Shown here: piece after piece, positions 20,446 to 27,119 of the stretch
Layout: the number at the start of each line of letters is the position of its first letter
How positions within the stretch are numbered: the first letter of the stretch is position 1
NCBI GenBank assembly: GCA_903829945.1
Contig: CAIKRV010000090.1
Location: forward strand, 1-64,000
DNA length: 64,000 nt
Origin: an uncultured bacterium
GTDB taxonomy: Bacteria > Bacteroidota > Bacteroidia > CAILMK01
Reading direction: 5' to 3'
Notes under the pieces: generated by a model
Databases searched by the model: none
The model's input: the letters and a program-made list of their open reading frames with translations, nothing else
What the model was told of the DNA's origin: nothing
Translations under genes and position numbers: made by a program

Positions 20446-22839
20446 TTAAAACTGAATACGATACAAGAACATTGGAAAGATACCTAATTGATATTCTAAA
20501 TCTACTTTATTATTTATCGGATCCCAAATTTGATTTAATACATTTTTATGATTGGTCAAATTCTGCACATCAATGGCCCATTCCTGTGTCATATGCTTAC
20601 CATCCATTTTATAACCTAAGCGCGCATCAATTTTAAAATATGGCGGAAATTCCAAACTCCAAGCCTTATCTTGTTGTATTCTGATATCGCGCCATATTCT
20701 TGAAGCAGCAGTATCCGCAGGGGAATAACGTCTTCCGCCTGCAAAGGTAAGCTTTCCAGTAAAGGTTATCATACTACGTTCCCCTAATTTAAAATCTTTT
20801 CCTGCCAAGGCATTGAATGTATATTTACTATTAAATGCCGTATTTCTTAAAACATCATCTGAGCCCTTATATTTTGAATCAAATAAAGAGGTTGTGATTA
20901 AAAAATAATAATTGTGACTAAAGAATTTTTCAAGTGTAAATTCCAATCCATAATTATTTCCGATGCCTTTATTCACTAAATGATCATCTAATTGTAATCC
21001 AAAATCTGCTCCGTTATTCACTACTGAATAAGAGTTGGATCGATAACCATCAATAGGTACATTAAATAAATGTTGGTAATAGGTTTCAATTTTAAATCTG
21101 AAATCTTTGCTGATGGATAAATCATAAGCCATTACAAAATGATTTGCCTTTAAAAAACCTAAATCCTTATTGGTTTCAGTATAGACATTAGAACCCGGAA
21201 CCAATTCGGTTTTATAAAAATATAAACTTAAGGGCTGCATTTGTCCATGCAAACCATAACCAAAACTTAAGGCTTGCTTGGATGCAAAGCTCCATTTAAG
21301 CCCGGCCCGAGGCTCCAATGAATTTGTATTATTGAAAGCCAATTGTTCATACTGCAATCCGCCCAGCAAACTCAATTGATCCGTAAAATCATGTTTCCAC
21401 TGCATGTAGGCTTGTCCAAGATAGCTAAATCCTTTATCATTGCTAAAATCTCGCCAATAAGGTTGCATCATAGGATCCATATAAACTTTTGATTGATTTA
21501 TTTTAAAATCAATTCTTGTAAAAATGACACCTATTCTGAAGGTATTCTGAGCATCCATTTTTTCATTAAAAAAAGAATGAATCGAAGTTTTAAAAGTATA
21601 GCTTTGATCTTTATAAAAATTATAAGGTACATTGGTACTTGAAAGGGAATCTACTTTTGTTCTATGATTTTCCAAAGTACCCGAAACAATGGTTTTTAAA
21701 AATGAACTTTTACCGGTAATATGGGTTATTCCAATACCGGCTACTGCCATATCAGAGCCAAAATACACATCACGTTTAACTTGTCCATAGCTCAAATTAT
21801 CTGATTTTTTCTTGCTATCCAACAAAGAAATATCACTACTGCCTCCAATGCCAAAAATATCAATGGTTGTTTTACGTGAAACGGATGGTAAATTAATTTT
21901 AAAAGTTAAATCTTGATACGTCGGAACTCCGTCCGGACCTAAATTAATACCCAAGTTTTGAAAAAATCCGAGGGCGGAATATCTATAGGCAATTAAAAAA
22001 GAAGAACCGCGCTCCTTATTTATAGGGCCTTCAGCATTCCCTTCAAAACCATTAAAACCTACTTGGCCCAAAAATTCATATTTTTCGTTATTCCCATTTC
22101 TCATTTTCAAATCAAATACACCGGAAGTAGCATTTCCATACTGCGCCGGCCAGGCACCTGTAAAAAAATCAGAATTTCTCAGCACATTATTGTTTAGGAT
22201 ACTGACAGGTCCACCGGTGGTACCTTGGGCAGAAAAATGATTCGGCGATGGAATATCTATATCTTCAAATCGCCATAATAATCCTACCGGCGAATTGCCT
22301 CGAATAATAATATCATTCCGTGCATCACTCGGTGCGGAAACACCTGCATAATTAGCAGCCATACGTGCCGGATCTCCCAAAGCTCCTGCATAGCGATTGG
22401 TTTCCTCCATGCTAAATACCCTCGCACTGACTACTGCCATTTCATTATTGGCACGCGCTTTATTTTTATCTGAAGTAATAATTATTTCTTTGCTACTAAT
22501 TATTGATTCCGTCAATTCAATGTATAATACATTTTCTTTACCGGTACTTACAATAATATTGGGCACGATCATTTCGTTGTAGCCTAAATAATTTATTTTA
22601 ATATCCCTACGTCCTATAGGCACATTTAATAATTTAAATCTTCCTTCTTCATCAGTGATGGCTCCTATTTGCGGATTACTTCCAATAACAATTACGGTAG
22701 CTCCAACCAAGGGTACTTTACTGTCTTTATCGATAACAGTACCTCTTACAGTTTGAGTATAATCTTGAGCTTTACCAATAGTACTTGTTGAAAAAATAAT
22801 TAAGAGAATCGCAATGATTGGACGTATTAAGATATTCAC
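20446..22839 (-). CDS. TonB-dependent receptor with N-terminal carboxypeptidase-regulatory-like domain
   Basis: VRGTVIDKDSKVPLVGATVIVIGSNPQIGAITDEEGRFKLLNVPIG; plug NDIIIRGNSPVGLLWRFEDIDIPSPNHF; C-terminal aromatic MFLYRIQF. Confidence 0.9.
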   Translation of the reverse strand: MNILIRPIIAILLIIFSTSTIGKAQDYTQTVRGTVIDKDSKVPLVGATVIVIGSNPQIGAITDEEGRFKLLNVPIGRRDIKINYLGYNEMIVPNIIVSTGKENVLYIELTESIISSKEIIITSDKNKARANNEMAVVSARVFSMEETNRYAGALGDPARMAANYAGVSAPSDARNDIIIRGNSPVGLLWRFEDIDIPSPNHFSAQGTTGGPVSILNNNVLRNSDFFTGAWPAQYGNATSGVFDLKMRNGNNEKYEFLGQVGFNGFEGNAEGPINKERGSSFLIAYRYSALGFFQNLGINLGPDGVPTYQDLTFKINLPSVSRKTTIDIFGIGGSSDISLLDSKKKSDNLSYGQVKRDVYFGSDMAVAGIGITHITGKSSFLKTIVSGTLENHRTKVDSLSSTNVPYNFYKDQSYTFKTSIHSFFNEKMDAQNTFRIGVIFTRIDFKINQSKVYMDPMMQPYWRDFSNDKGFSYLGQAYMQWKHDFTDQLSLLGGLQYEQLAFNNTNSLEPRAGLKWSFASKQALSFGYGLHGQMQPLSLYFYKTELVPGSNVYTETNKDLGFLKANHFVMAYDLSISKDFRFKIETYYQHLFNVPIDGYRSNSYSVVNNGADFGLQLDDHLVNKGIGNNYGLEFTLEKFFSHNYYFLITTSLFDSKYKGSDDVLRNTAFNSKYTFNALAGKDFKLGERSMITFTGKLTFAGGRRYSPADTAASRIWRDIRIQQDKAWSLEFPPYFKIDARLGYKMDGKHMTQEWAIDVQNLTNHKNVLNQIWDPINNKVDLEYQLGIFPMFLYRIQF

Positions 22840-22905: not shown

Positions 22906-23586
22906 TTAAGGCTCTAATTCCAATACTTTAATATCATGAATCAAACGCTCTGTTTCTAAGGCCAAAGTTCCATTGTATAATCCTCTTATTCTGCCATCTG
23001 AATCAACCAATATAAGATGTTCCGTATGTAAAAACTCAATGGAATCTTTATTATAACCGGTAGTCTCCTCGGCAAAATAAGATTGTCTGGCTAATTTGTA
23101 GATTTCAGATTTATTACCGGTTAACAGGTGCCATTGCGATGCATTTATTTTCCTTCGCTCCGCAAAGCGCCTTAGCCTGCTTACTGAATCCAACCATGGC
23201 GTTACACTATAGGATAATATTAAAACCATTGGGTCATTTTTGAAAGTAGATTGTACTTGCAATAATTGAGTCGTCATTTTTGGACAAATGCTCCCGCATG
23301 CCGTAAAAAAGAAATCTGCAACATGAATTTTACCTTTCAAATTACTTCTGGAAAATATCTGTCCTGTTTGATCTTTAAAATTAAAATCTGCAATGGTATG
23401 AGTAATTTCTTTGGCAGCTTCCTTTTTCGTTGAAAACCATAATGGGGTAAAATCGGGACTATTATAATACGGCAAAGTGTCTTTTGCACTTTCATTTTTT
23501 ACCTGACACGCTCCAATCCCGAATATTAATAAGATACTTAATATTATTTGCAAGAAAATGGTAGATATTTTATTTGATACTATCAC
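22906..23586 (-). CDS. SCO1/SenC family protein (thioredoxin-fold copper chaperone-like)
   Basis: FTACGSICPKMTTQL (CxxxC) and downstream HTEHLILVDSDGRIRGLYNG. Confidence 0.9.
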   Translation of the reverse strand: MIVSNKISTIFLQIILSILLIFGIGACQVKNESAKDTLPYYNSPDFTPLWFSTKKEAAKEITHTIADFNFKDQTGQIFSRSNLKGKIHVADFFFTACGSICPKMTTQLLQVQSTFKNDPMVLILSYSVTPWLDSVSRLRRFAERRKINASQWHLLTGNKSEIYKLARQSYFAEETTGYNKDSIEFLHTEHLILVDSDGRIRGLYNGTLALETERLIHDIKVLELEP

Positions 23587-24169
23587 GAACTGATTTACAA
23601 TTTTTAACTCCGGTTAAGCCATAATTTCTTCCGTTTTTTGCCATATAATTAGCCATCAAAGAACCATCGGGTTGCCATGCTGTTTGCATGCCGGATTCAT
23701 GTCCATTTTTATAATGCATTTTTTTCATAGGTTTACCGTCTTCGTACCAATCTTCCGCTACACCTTCCATTAAATCGGCATGATAAAGATAAACAAAACG
23801 TTTTTTACCCGAGGGGTACCAGCCTTGGTGTATCCCCTCTCTAAAGCCATCAATATAAATTCTTGCCTCTGATAATTGCCTATTGGGATACCATTTCTTT
23901 GCAATTCCATTTAACTTTCCGTTGACATAAGGTTCCAGCATTATACTATCCTTGTTTGGATAAAGACTATATAACTGACCGGTAAATAGCGTATTATTAC
24001 AAAAAAGCTTATCCCCCAAGTGCTTTATATTTGCATGGTCAATGCATACATTTCTGCCAGGGGGGATGCCGGGTCCTGTGCAGGAAAAACACAAGCAACC
24101 CAACCAAACAAAAACTAGTAATTTTTTATTGACTAACCGTACCGGGAACCCCATAAAAACCACTTCCAT
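23570..24169 (-). CDS. YwqK/MORN-like repeat lipoprotein
   Basis: LCFSC lipobox; repeats VNGKLNGIAKKWYPNRQLSEARIYIDGFREGIHQGWYPSGKKRFVYLYHADLMEGVAEDWYEDGKPMKKMHYKNGHESGMQTAWQPDG. Confidence 0.8.
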   Translation of the reverse strand: MEVVFMGFPVRLVNKKLLVFVWLGCLCFSCTGPGIPPGRNVCIDHANIKHLGDKLFCNNTLFTGQLYSLYPNKDSIMLEPYVNGKLNGIAKKWYPNRQLSEARIYIDGFREGIHQGWYPSGKKRFVYLYHADLMEGVAEDWYEDGKPMKKMHYKNGHESGMQTAWQPDGSLMANYMAKNGRNYGLTGVKNCKSVRDSIK

Positions 24170-24896
24170 TTATATAAGGATCAGTTGAAGTAATATGATA
24201 ATGATAAATACCTGCAGGATAATCTGCGGTGGCACTGGTATGACCATGGTATTGGTCCAAATCAGAATTACTGATGGTTTTTCCATTTTCCATGGGCCCA
24301 TAAACAGGGAAACCATCCAATAAGAAGCCTAAAAGTGCATCTTCACCTTTATTTTGAGTGAGCCATTTAGGTTCCACATGATAATGATATTGTCCTTGTT
24401 GCTGAGGATGGCCTCCATATTGATCAAATGAAAGTTTTTCATAGGTCAAAGTTGCCCGGCCGGCAGCATACTGATTAAAGAATGGAACTCCATTTAATGA
24501 AATACCGATCGGACCTAAAGGGGTAGCTGTTTTATTTGTTTTAACGACCGGATGGAGTGGAATTTTAAACACTAAACTTTGTTGCACTATGACACTTGGA
24601 TTTATTTTAAAGGAGGATGCAGTATCCGCAATATATTTCCTGCTTTCCCACTGCGTAGTTTTGTAATAAGGCGATTTATGATCCGGTGTATCTACGGTAG
24701 TAAAAACAACAAAAGTAGTGTCATTAATTACTTGTGTATAGATAGAAGTAGCACCATACACTTTTTTATAAATTGCTAATTCATCTGTGCCGGTACTATT
24801 ACTATTATTGGAAACCGGAGTATCTGTTTTGGTACAGGCCATAGCCATTATTAGTAAGGAACTAATAAGTACAATCGGATTAAATAATTTCTTCAT
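24126..24896 (-). CDS. YHYH-domain lipoprotein (start moved from 24944 to the ATG at 24896)
   Basis: MKKLFNPIVLISSLLIMAMAC lipoprotein signal; QGQYHYHVEP and YPAGIYHYHITSTDPYINGSGFYGVPG. Confidence 0.8.
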   Translation of the reverse strand: MKKLFNPIVLISSLLIMAMACTKTDTPVSNNSNSTGTDELAIYKKVYGATSIYTQVINDTTFVVFTTVDTPDHKSPYYKTTQWESRKYIADTASSFKINPSVIVQQSLVFKIPLHPVVKTNKTATPLGPIGISLNGVPFFNQYAAGRATLTYEKLSFDQYGGHPQQQGQYHYHVEPKWLTQNKGEDALLGFLLDGFPVYGPMENGKTISNSDLDQYHGHTSATADYPAGIYHYHITSTDPYINGSGFYGVPGTVSQ

Positions 24897-24940
24897 TTTA
24901 TTTTTATTGAATGGTAATATAGGTTTAGACGCTTTTAAAA

Positions 24941-25429
24941 TCAATTTCCTTCGCGCCGAGGAGGAGGTAATTCACTTTTGGGAGGATGCGGTAATATAAT
25001 TTTACTCAATTCAGGAATCAACTCCTGAAAACGTTCTATTTGGTCCGGTCTACACAATGATTTTAATTCCTGAAAATGTCGGAAAGTGATTTGTGCCTTT
25101 TGTAATTGGATTTTTTCCACCATATTTTCCAAAGAATCCTTGCTTGAATTTTCTAATTGTTTAACATTTAATAATTCGAAATACTGCTGCAGTACCTCTA
25201 CGTATTGTTTATCCAATTGCATCATCTGATGATGATGTTCCCGCTTCATGGTATTAAAACGGGCAATTTGTTTTTCGTCCAAATTCAAAGTTTCGGTAAT
25301 TAATTTATCCACTTTTGGTGGTCCCATTGGCGGACGTTCATGTCCTATAAAAACAAAAAATATAATTATACTTATATTCAGCAATAAAAGTAAAATCACC
25401 AGTAGCGTAAGCAATTTTTCTTTCTTCAT
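24941..25429 (-). CDS. Spy/CpxP-like periplasmic protein (metal-sensor/chaperone type)
   Basis: N-terminal TM/signal, ERPPMGPPKVDKLITETLNLDEKQIARFNTMKREHHHQMMQLDKQYVEVLQQYFELL. Confidence 0.7.
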   Translation of the reverse strand: MKKEKLLTLLVILLLLLNISIIIFFVFIGHERPPMGPPKVDKLITETLNLDEKQIARFNTMKREHHHQMMQLDKQYVEVLQQYFELLNVKQLENSSKDSLENMVEKIQLQKAQITFRHFQELKSLCRPDQIERFQELIPELSKIILPHPPKSELPPPRREGN

Positions 25430-25430
25430 C

Positions 25431-25712
25431 TTAGTAAAGATTAAAATTTGAATTATCTATTAAATAACCATTTGAATGGCTGTGCATTCCTTCTTCTTTA
25501 TGATGGTTTATCGTCTTAACAATACTAAAATTGAGCAAACATAAAATTACAAAACATGCCATCGCTAAATATACTTTTTTAGAGGATATTTGCCCCTCCC
25601 GGATATTTTCCAATTTTGCCATAATCCGGGTAAACATAAACTCCGGTGCATGGGCAGACTGCATTCCATCCAAGCTATTTAAAATATTATTTTCCCAATC
25701 AGTGTGTTCCAT
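25431..25712 (-). CDS. Small single-TM protein, putative anti-sigma factor
   Basis: 93 aa directly downstream of the ECF sigma gene; cytoplasmic N-terminus, one TM (VYLAMACFVILCLLNFSIV), tail INHHKEEGMHSHSNGY. Confidence 0.5.
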   Translation of the reverse strand: MEHTDWENNILNSLDGMQSAHAPEFMFTRIMAKLENIREGQISSKKVYLAMACFVILCLLNFSIVKTINHHKEEGMHSHSNGYLIDNSNFNLY

Positions 25713-25732
25713 ATGTATACTTTTTTAGACGT

Positions 25733-26320
25733 TTATTCTTTCATTTTCCTTCGTTCAGGATAGTATTTTCCTAATTCTTTTCTTAATTGAACTTTAGCTC
25801 TTTGCAATAGTGATTCAATAGCTTTGGGACTTGTTTTCATAATAGAAGCAACTTCTTTGCCCGGTAAGTCCTCTATATAAGATAAAATATAAGCAGTTTT
25901 CTGAGATTCAGGTAGTTTGTCTATGGCCTTGAAGAGTATTTGGGCTTTGTCTTTATTTTCTAATATAATTCCAGGATGTTCAAAATGAGGAACATCTATT
26001 TGCAAAGCGCCTGATTCTGAATTAAATATACTAAGTAAAAATGCAAAACGTTTTTTCCTGCCTCTATGTCTGAGATGGTCTAAACATTTATTCACCGCAA
26101 TCTTATAGATCCAGGTACGTTCGGATGACTCACCTTTAAAATTATTACTGGAACGATAAATTTCAACAAATATGTCTTGGGTTATTTCTTCGCTTTCTTC
26201 TTGTTGTTGGATATAACTTAATACCGTATTAAAAACTTTATCCTTATACATATGATATAAGGTTTCAAAAGCTTTTGCATCACCGTTGGCAATACGATTA
26301 ACTAAGGTTTCATTGCTCAT
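25733..26320 (-). CDS. ECF-type RNA polymerase sigma-70 factor
   Basis: GDAKAFETLYHMYKDKVFNTVLSYI, EEITQDIFVEIYRS, TWIYKIAVNKCLDHLRHRGRKKR, LPESQKTAYILSYIEDLPGKEVASIMKTSPKAIESLLQRAKVQLRKEL. Confidence 0.95.
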   Translation of the reverse strand: MSNETLVNRIANGDAKAFETLYHMYKDKVFNTVLSYIQQQEESEEITQDIFVEIYRSSNNFKGESSERTWIYKIAVNKCLDHLRHRGRKKRFAFLLSIFNSESGALQIDVPHFEHPGIILENKDKAQILFKAIDKLPESQKTAYILSYIEDLPGKEVASIMKTSPKAIESLLQRAKVQLRKELGKYYPERRKMKE

Positions 26321-26331
26321 GAAATATATTG

Positions 26332-26994
26332 CTATTCAGTTTCGAGCGCACTTGCTAGAAATAAATTCATGGGCTGCATAGCTTTAAATATTTTATTAAT
26401 TTTTTCGGCAATATCCTTTTCAGTTAATTCAGAATCGTCCATGTGATGAATCATCGTAAAACTTTTAAGTTTTAAATATTCAATAGCAGGATTGTCCTTA
26501 TCATAGTCTTTAGGCGTGGTTTTTAGCTTTTCCCCTCCCAAGTCTCCGAAATAATTTTTAAAGTCCTTCTGTTTAAGTAATTTCTGGAAGTCTTTAAAAT
26601 TATAATCTATTTCTTGTCGAATGGCTTTTAGAACGGGAGCTTCCGGCATATAAATCCCACCGGCAATAAAACATCCTCCGGGTTCCAAATGCAAATAATA
26701 GCCCGGCCCGTTAGAATTTTTTCCGGTAGGCGATAACCAGGCTCCCATATTAGTTTTATAGGGGTCTTTATTTGCTGAAAATCGTATGTCTCTATTAATT
26801 CTAAAAATTGACTTTTTAGGATCCAAGGTTTTTAAACGTTCGTCCCATTTTCCTGCCTTTTCAATTAATACCGTCAAAAATTGGATCAACTCATTTCTTG
26901 CAGCTTCATAGGTTTTTCTATTTTTATCAAACCATTCCTTATTGTTATTCTTTTTTAGCTTTTTTAAAAAATCAAAGGTTGATTGTTGTATCAT
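26332..26994 (-). CDS. DUF2461 (TIGR02453-like) protein; start likely the ATG at 26994 rather than 27039
   Basis: STFDFLKKLKKNNNKEWFDKNRKTYEAARNELIQFL...IFRINRDIRFSANKDPYKTNMGAWL. Confidence 0.85.
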   Translation of the reverse strand: MIQQSTFDFLKKLKKNNNKEWFDKNRKTYEAARNELIQFLTVLIEKAGKWDERLKTLDPKKSIFRINRDIRFSANKDPYKTNMGAWLSPTGKNSNGPGYYLHLEPGGCFIAGGIYMPEAPVLKAIRQEIDYNFKDFQKLLKQKDFKNYFGDLGGEKLKTTPKDYDKDNPAIEYLKLKSFTMIHHMDDSELTEKDIAEKINKIFKAMQPMNLFLASALETE

Positions 26995-27119
26995 ATTGAA
27001 TAATATTAGTATTGCGAAGATATAAAAAACATGATACAATCAAGAAATTGTACGCAGGCTTAAAACTTATATAACATGATATATTAGTTAAAAAATTAAA
27101 CTTACACTTTGTTTATAAA

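Follow-up and report, generated by a model that had tools for sequence, protein, structure and literature searches.

The closest described systems to the locus analysed here are CnrYXH and NccYXH of Cupriavidus metallidurans, which sense cobalt and nickel and whose regulatory genes lie adjacent, in the order Y-X-H; the target of CnrYXH is a resistance-nodulation-division metal efflux pump. We describe a unit of six genes in an uncultured bacterium of the Bacteroidota (assembly GCA_903829945.1, contig CAIKRV010000090.1, positions 1 to 64,000 of the forward strand; this whole stretch of 64,000 nucleotides is called the window). The genome comprises 2.9 Mb and is 99.99% complete, and the relatives found were Bacteroidota. 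On the minus strand, from 26320 down to 22906, the unit encodes an extracytoplasmic function (ECF) sigma factor, a 93-aa protein with a single transmembrane (TM) segment, a Spy-like protein, a YHYH protein, a MORN_2 protein and a SCO1-type protein, and neighbouring gene boundaries either overlap or are no more than about 45 nt apart.

The unit shares with CnrYXH and NccYXH an ECF sigma factor with regions 2 and 4, a small single-TM protein of CnrY layout and a CnrX-fold sensor with one N-terminal TM helix. The regulatory genes are adjacent in both cases, although their order here is ECF-TM-sensor. However, most of the CnrX ligands are missing and only the position of His119 is kept (as H118), and the genes carrying the promoter described below are YHYH-MORN-SCO and haem peroxidases instead of an efflux pump. 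The unit is therefore CnrYXH-like in its architecture and not a member of CnrYXH by ligands or targets. A preliminary description made from the window had proposed a CnrHYX-like, metal-responsive module, and this architecture is borne out by the CnrX/NccX fold of the Spy-like protein and by the small single-TM protein, present in 27/27 linked loci. Its six same-strand open reading frames (ORFs) all lie on the minus strand where it had placed them, with only small corrections of the starts (most likely ATG 24896 for YHYH and ATG 24154, overlapping YHYH, for MORN). As judged from the sequences, we are dealing with a real and conserved switch of the CnrYXH kind, in a new variant, whose promoter links it to a conserved cassette that it is predicted to control.

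The individual proteins also have described relatives. Spy, CpxP and ZraP belong to the same fold family as the sensor which, unlike them, is membrane-anchored, is tied to an ECF sigma factor and a TM protein and has its own His/His/Cys set. The SCO protein keeps the thioredoxin-like domain, the CxxxC motif and the distal His of the SCO1/SenC copper chaperones of cytochrome c oxidase, but it is invariably accompanied by YHYH and MORN lipoproteins. The YHYH-domain proteins of phages and cyanophages belong to the same Pfam family and have a similar predicted fold, whereas the YHYH protein here is a compact lipoprotein of an envelope operon and not a part of a virion.

Conservation of the cassette and of the regulatory module

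A search by YHYH similarity yielded 80 genomes, and YHYH, MORN and SCO stood together in all 74 loci that had enough downstream sequence to be testable. In 27 of 70 loci the cassette was immediately preceded by the ECF, TM and Spy genes, and none of these 27 lacked the TM gene. Because these loci had been selected by similarity, we also examined 398 Bacteroidota genomes that were sampled independently. Of these, 41 contained PF14240, and all 15 compact YHYH genes examined in this sample had MORN and SCO beside them. The genes flanking YHYH-MORN-SCO are frequently unrelated between loci and therefore the three genes travel as a unit. The conserved neighbourhood on which the preliminary description depended is thus present, and it goes well past what chance would give.

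Regarding the sensor family, it occurs in 161 of the 398 genomes, nearly always as ECF-TM-Spy in the loci examined. By our own count, 15 genomes hold both families, and in 7 of them a Spy-like gene lies within 5 kb of YHYH; chance would give about 0.1, a rough estimate that allows each sensor gene a 10-kb span in about 4 Mb. Two blocks can be told apart: the invariant YHYH-MORN-SCO cassette and, separate from it, the module of ECF, single-TM and Spy-like genes, which is widespread in Bacteroidota. The linked arrangement is also present in cultured Emticicia, Spirosoma, Taibaiella and Flavobacterium. At four loci (L163, L166, L167 and L176) the ECF-TM-sensor module adjoins genes without a copper link, such as that of an Lcl_C protein (L163), and given such neighbours the signal of the module may be broader than copper.

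The ECF-type promoter

A bipartite ECF-type promoter, GAAGGAAA...CGTCTAA, stands before the TM gene and again before the YHYH gene; in the lineage of the window its form is CGAAGGAAA-TGA...CGTCTAA. Exactly 2 sites of the 2.9-Mb genome match the pattern GAAGGAW-N14-16-CGTCTAA, and both belong to the operon, with 0 in the control and 0.13 expected, although this test demonstrates the uniqueness of the two sites and not their discovery, since the pattern was derived from them. The motif was recognised only by inspecting sets of close relatives, and an exact-dyad search of 41 ECF upstream regions gave no dyad above shuffles. Both sites in the window overlap the 3' ends of coding frames. Nevertheless, protein coding does not explain the motif, because the genes whose ends they overlap are not the same, nor is the reading frame (E-R-R-K-M-K-E-stop in one case and R-R-E-G-N-stop in the other).

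Independent support for the promoter is that Taibaiella, Algoriphagus, Spirosoma and others have the same element at the same place. It was found 6-20 nt before the TM gene in seven loci (L004, L005, L012-L015 and L021) and 15-32 nt before YHYH in other genera, or 98-108 nt in Emticicia, where the nearly genome-unique form CCGCAAGTTTT-N12-CATCTAA precedes both the ECF and the YHYH genes. In ten genomes the strict pattern had 18 matches, 15 of them at the ECF or YHYH gene of the module and 2 before MauG-type di-haem peroxidases, and the reversed control had 6. A weight matrix built from these lineages located the element before the ECF gene of held-out modules that do not adjoin YHYH, as well as upstream of YHYH in several cassettes that no ECF gene adjoins. 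Fourteen further genomes gave 20 matches, 13 of them in modules, against 15 in the control, and most of the off-module matches were inside genes.

In the lineage of the window the ECF gene has the site behind it and not in front: a scan of the 1 kb before the ECF gene of the window with the weight matrix found no site, and the Emticicia form, allowing up to 3 mismatches, had no match above chance in the window. The same genome-unique promoter before the TM and YHYH genes makes it very probable that the sigma factor drives the cassette, in agreement with the earlier proposal that YHYH, MORN and SCO are its immediate targets. We also looked at genomes where cassette and ECF gene are unlinked. 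In G151 the site is present at both places, which is suggestive of regulation in trans, but there were 9 matches against 6 in the control; in G323 the site was one-sided.

Beyond the cassette, the promoter precedes a di-haem MauG-type peroxidase gene in two Emticicia genomes (L193:1637-2833 and L197:197-1360), which is likely a third gene of the regulon there. A matching promoter was also observed 27 nt before an ORF for a 491-aa animal-type haem peroxidase (L235), a possible extra member. In L011/L184 a lipoprotein gene (L184:773-1402) with a weak, sub-cut-off PepSY-like match lies between the promoter and YHYH, and one Cytophagales genome (G403; L189 and L195/L198) carries two full ECF-TM-Spy-YHYH copies, with both promoters in each.

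Table 1. Genes and promoter sites of the unit, with positions in the window
Feature	Position	Strand	Evidence
ECF sigma factor gene, 195 aa	25733..26320	-	Sigma70_r2 and Sigma70_r4_2 over cut-off; E<1e-20 to solved ECF sigma factors
Single-TM protein, 93 aa, probable anti-sigma factor, CnrY layout	25431..25712	-	Between ECF and sensor genes in related loci
Membrane-anchored sensor of Spy/CnrX fold, 162 aa	24941..25429	-	AlphaFold2 model; PDB matches to CnrX/NccX; conservation
YHYH (PF14240) lipoprotein, 256 aa	24126..24896	-	96.6 bits against a cut-off of 25; conservation; confident model
MORN_2/YwqK-like lipoprotein	23570..24154	-	MORN_2 over cut-off; found in all testable loci
SCO1-type lipoprotein with C97xxxC101 and H187	22906..23586	-	SCO1-SenC, 77.6 bits; conserved ligands
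Outer-membrane TonB-receptor-like protein, possible accessory gene	20446..22839	-	Carboxypeptidase-regulatory-like domain only; 66 nt after SCO
Promoter copy 1, CGAAGGAAAATGAAAGAATAAACGTCTAA	25725..25753	-	12 nt before the TM gene; one of two genome-wide matches
Promoter copy 2, CGAAGGAAATTGATTTTAAAAGCGTCTAA	24925..24953	-	28 nt before the YHYH gene; the other of two genome-wide matches

The assignments to families rest on Pfam E-values of 3e-14 and 5e-14 for sigma-70 regions 2 and 4_2 of the ECF protein, 2.5e-27 for YHYH, 1e-9 for MORN_2 and 1e-21 for SCO1-SenC. Homologues of the TonB-receptor-like protein, 39-47% identical, are found on loci L048, L049, L073 and L078, in L073 between the sensor and YHYH. 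On the other side of the unit, a DUF2461 gene (26332-27039, minus strand) ends 11 nt before the ECF gene; it was ruled out as a member, as L003, the closest relative, is the only other locus where it adjoins the ECF gene.

Sensor, single-TM protein and lipoproteins

The sensor has only a sub-threshold Metal_resist match (E=0.0017). Its AlphaFold2 model (predicted local distance difference test score 89.6) consists of an N-terminal TM helix and a four-helix domain, and the comparison with CnrX by structure prediction that the preliminary description had proposed does point to the CnrX/NccX fold: the cobalt/nickel sensors CnrX and NccX were among the best PDB matches in Foldseek, with a probability of 1.00 and a template modelling score (TMt) of up to 0.79. 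The Foldseek E-values are modest (about 0.06-0.3), and Spy, CpxP and ZraP match too, as expected for one fold family. A profile search with the sensor gave Spy at E=2.5e-4 and NccX at E=4e-4.

Among 58 sensors across the phylum, His65 is present in 56, His118 in 56 and Cys126 in 55; in the linked sensors both His are invariant and the Cys nearly so. From where these residues lie on the antiparallel helices, His65 would be expected to face His118, with Cys126 two turns away. In the NccX alignment, His118 falls on the position of the ligand His119 and His65 lies beside that of Glu63. Sensors near YHYH and other sensors did not differ at the conserved His/Cys positions. An EHHHQMM run in this protein had been pointed out earlier as well; its first His is invariant, whereas the remainder is mostly local.

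The single-TM protein had no domain-family match and no PDB match. Its family ranges from 90 to 127 aa, with one TM-like segment in 28 of 29 members, mostly about 45-57 residues before the segment and a tail of 22-44 residues after it. By size, topology and position, all of the CnrY type, the 93-aa protein is probably the anti-sigma factor. Its tail, INHHKEEGMHSHSNGY, whose coding position we corrected to about 25511-25464, had been taken for metal-liganding. In this genome it contains 4 His and 1 Met. The nearest relative, L003, has 2 His, and in all other homologues there are 0-1 His, with the exception of L040 with 3. The His/Met tail is thus essentially private to this genome, and for this lack of conservation we reject it as the metal sensor.

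YHYH has eight near-invariant His, including those of three HxH motifs, and three invariant Asp; the motif Y170-H173 is invariant except for Y172 in one sequence. Its predicted model is confident, yet no PDB relative was found either by sequence or by fold. In the SCO protein C97 and C101 are kept in 79 of 80 sequences and H187 in 78 of 80. Three sister ECF-TM-sensor modules carry MbnP and a MauG/MbnH-type protein directly after them, with YHYH following in two, and of 25 long-form YHYH genes 9 have MbnH or MbnP no more than about 1.5 kb away. We take the pair of CorA and its MauG-like partner (CorA-CorB) to be equivalent to MbnP/MbnH. CorA of Methylomicrobium has a Cu(I) site that includes a kynurenine, is co-transcribed with a MauG-like protein and is repressed by copper (PMC3912023). 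Neither MbnP nor MbnH is part of the operon described here; in the same genome a second SCO1 gene lies on contig C40 and two MbnP genes on C19 and C64, away from the operon. Because the SCO ligands are kept, MbnP/MbnH stand beside sister modules and CorA is copper-repressed, copper is our best guess for the metal, and there is about an even chance that the lipoproteins bind and process copper in the envelope.

Proposed mechanism, rival explanations and significance

In the mechanism that we propose, the Spy/CnrX-fold protein would sense a periplasmic signal, which would loosen the hold of the single-TM protein on the ECF sigma factor at the membrane. The freed sigma factor would then transcribe from two copies of one promoter, the first giving more anti-sigma factor and sensor and the second the YHYH, MORN and SCO lipoproteins, where SCO would act as a copper/thiol chaperone and YHYH as its client, a multi-histidine metalloprotein. 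Since neither promoter copy precedes the sigma gene, feedback in this genome would appear to be negative, whereas in Emticicia the promoter before the sigma gene would allow positive autoregulation. The regulatory part of this explanation seems to us highly probable. For the whole reading, an envelope-sensing unit of the CnrYXH type that controls a short regulon of its own, with copper-handling lipoproteins, we estimate a probability of about 0.65.

Several observations weigh against it. No similarity to CnrY could be detected in the family of the TM protein, the PDB search included. CnrX binds its metal through His42, His46, Glu63, His119 and Met123, and the NccX alignment revealed no counterpart in the sensor for His42, His46 or Met123 (the last reported as a ligand in PMC7689651). 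The sensor family also adjoins genes without a copper link, such as those of Lcl_C proteins, and because these sensors keep the same residues, the conserved residues do not single out copper. A recognisable site before YHYH was found in only 10 of the 27 linked loci, many being without one. Since these loci had also served to refine the pattern, the 100-fold enrichment seen overall at promoter positions is in part circular.

The main rival explanation has the switch responding to oxidants in the periplasm (peroxide or thiol oxidation), with Cys126 as a redox switch and SCO as a thiol reductase alongside peroxidases. The MauG-type di-haem proteins in the two Emticicia genomes and after sister modules would fit it, as would the animal-type haem peroxidase of L235 and an AhpC/TSA peroxiredoxin gene directly upstream of YHYH in about a dozen loci without an adjoining ECF gene (L061-L082, cluster c6). 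However, MauG-type proteins can also be the maturing partner of MbnP, and the MbnP next to sister modules belongs to a family with a specific copper role; as the fold is that of metal sensors, the two conserved His suggest a metal site and the SCO copper ligands are kept, we consider oxidant sensing unlikely. Rather unlikely is also that the regulon answers copper shortage, so that the TonB-type receptor imports copper and YHYH/SCO pass it on, with the sensor logic reversed with respect to CnrX. The copper repression of CorA and the TonB-type receptor genes adjoining the cassette here and in L048, L049 and L073 agree with a shortage response, but such receptors are absent from most loci and CnrX-type sensors release the sigma factor upon metal binding, that is, in excess (PMC7689651).

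YHYH could instead be a zinc-dependent envelope hydrolase and the module an envelope-damage response without a copper role, given that the YHYH domains of phages were predicted in 2021 to be hydrolases that depend on a metal, with a Zn site (PMC7824862), that the YHYH model matches the phage proteins and that Spy/CpxP relatives sense envelope stress. The invariant pairing with SCO1 and the eight conserved His of the compact YHYH, more than a site of a His triad plus Asp needs, make this quite improbable. That the two halves are mere neighbours, the motif being chance or coding sequence and the cassette outside the control of the sigma factor, appears very improbable: it would suit the 43 of 70 YHYH cassettes without an adjoining ECF module and the overlap of both window sites with coding frames, but the sites are in different reading frames and genome-unique, are intergenic elsewhere and recur upstream of the ECF gene in unlinked modules.

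A full-text search, with few subscription papers covered, found no paper joining Bacteroidetes, ECF sigma factor, copper and SCO1, and none joining YHYH with SCO1 was found either. It is a tentative proposal, which we hold at somewhat less than even odds, that this is an undescribed envelope system of Bacteroidota in which a CnrX-fold sensor, whose His/His/Cys site is new, controls a dedicated sigma regulon with YHYH at its core, a multi-histidine metalloprotein or enzyme (probably of copper) of a new type, metallated by a SCO chaperone of its own and partnered by a MORN lipoprotein; the system would be modular with MbnP/MbnH. In a survey, around 6% of the ECF sigma factors of Bacteroidetes had a recognised class I anti-sigma factor as neighbour (PMC7406223), and ECF-TM-Spy would be a concrete, widespread second ECF architecture for this group, together with its promoter. 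The YHYH proteins, for which our searches returned neither an assigned function nor a solved structure, would thereby be given a regulator and two invariant partners, and their chemistry would become testable; all this can be tested directly because cultured carriers exist.

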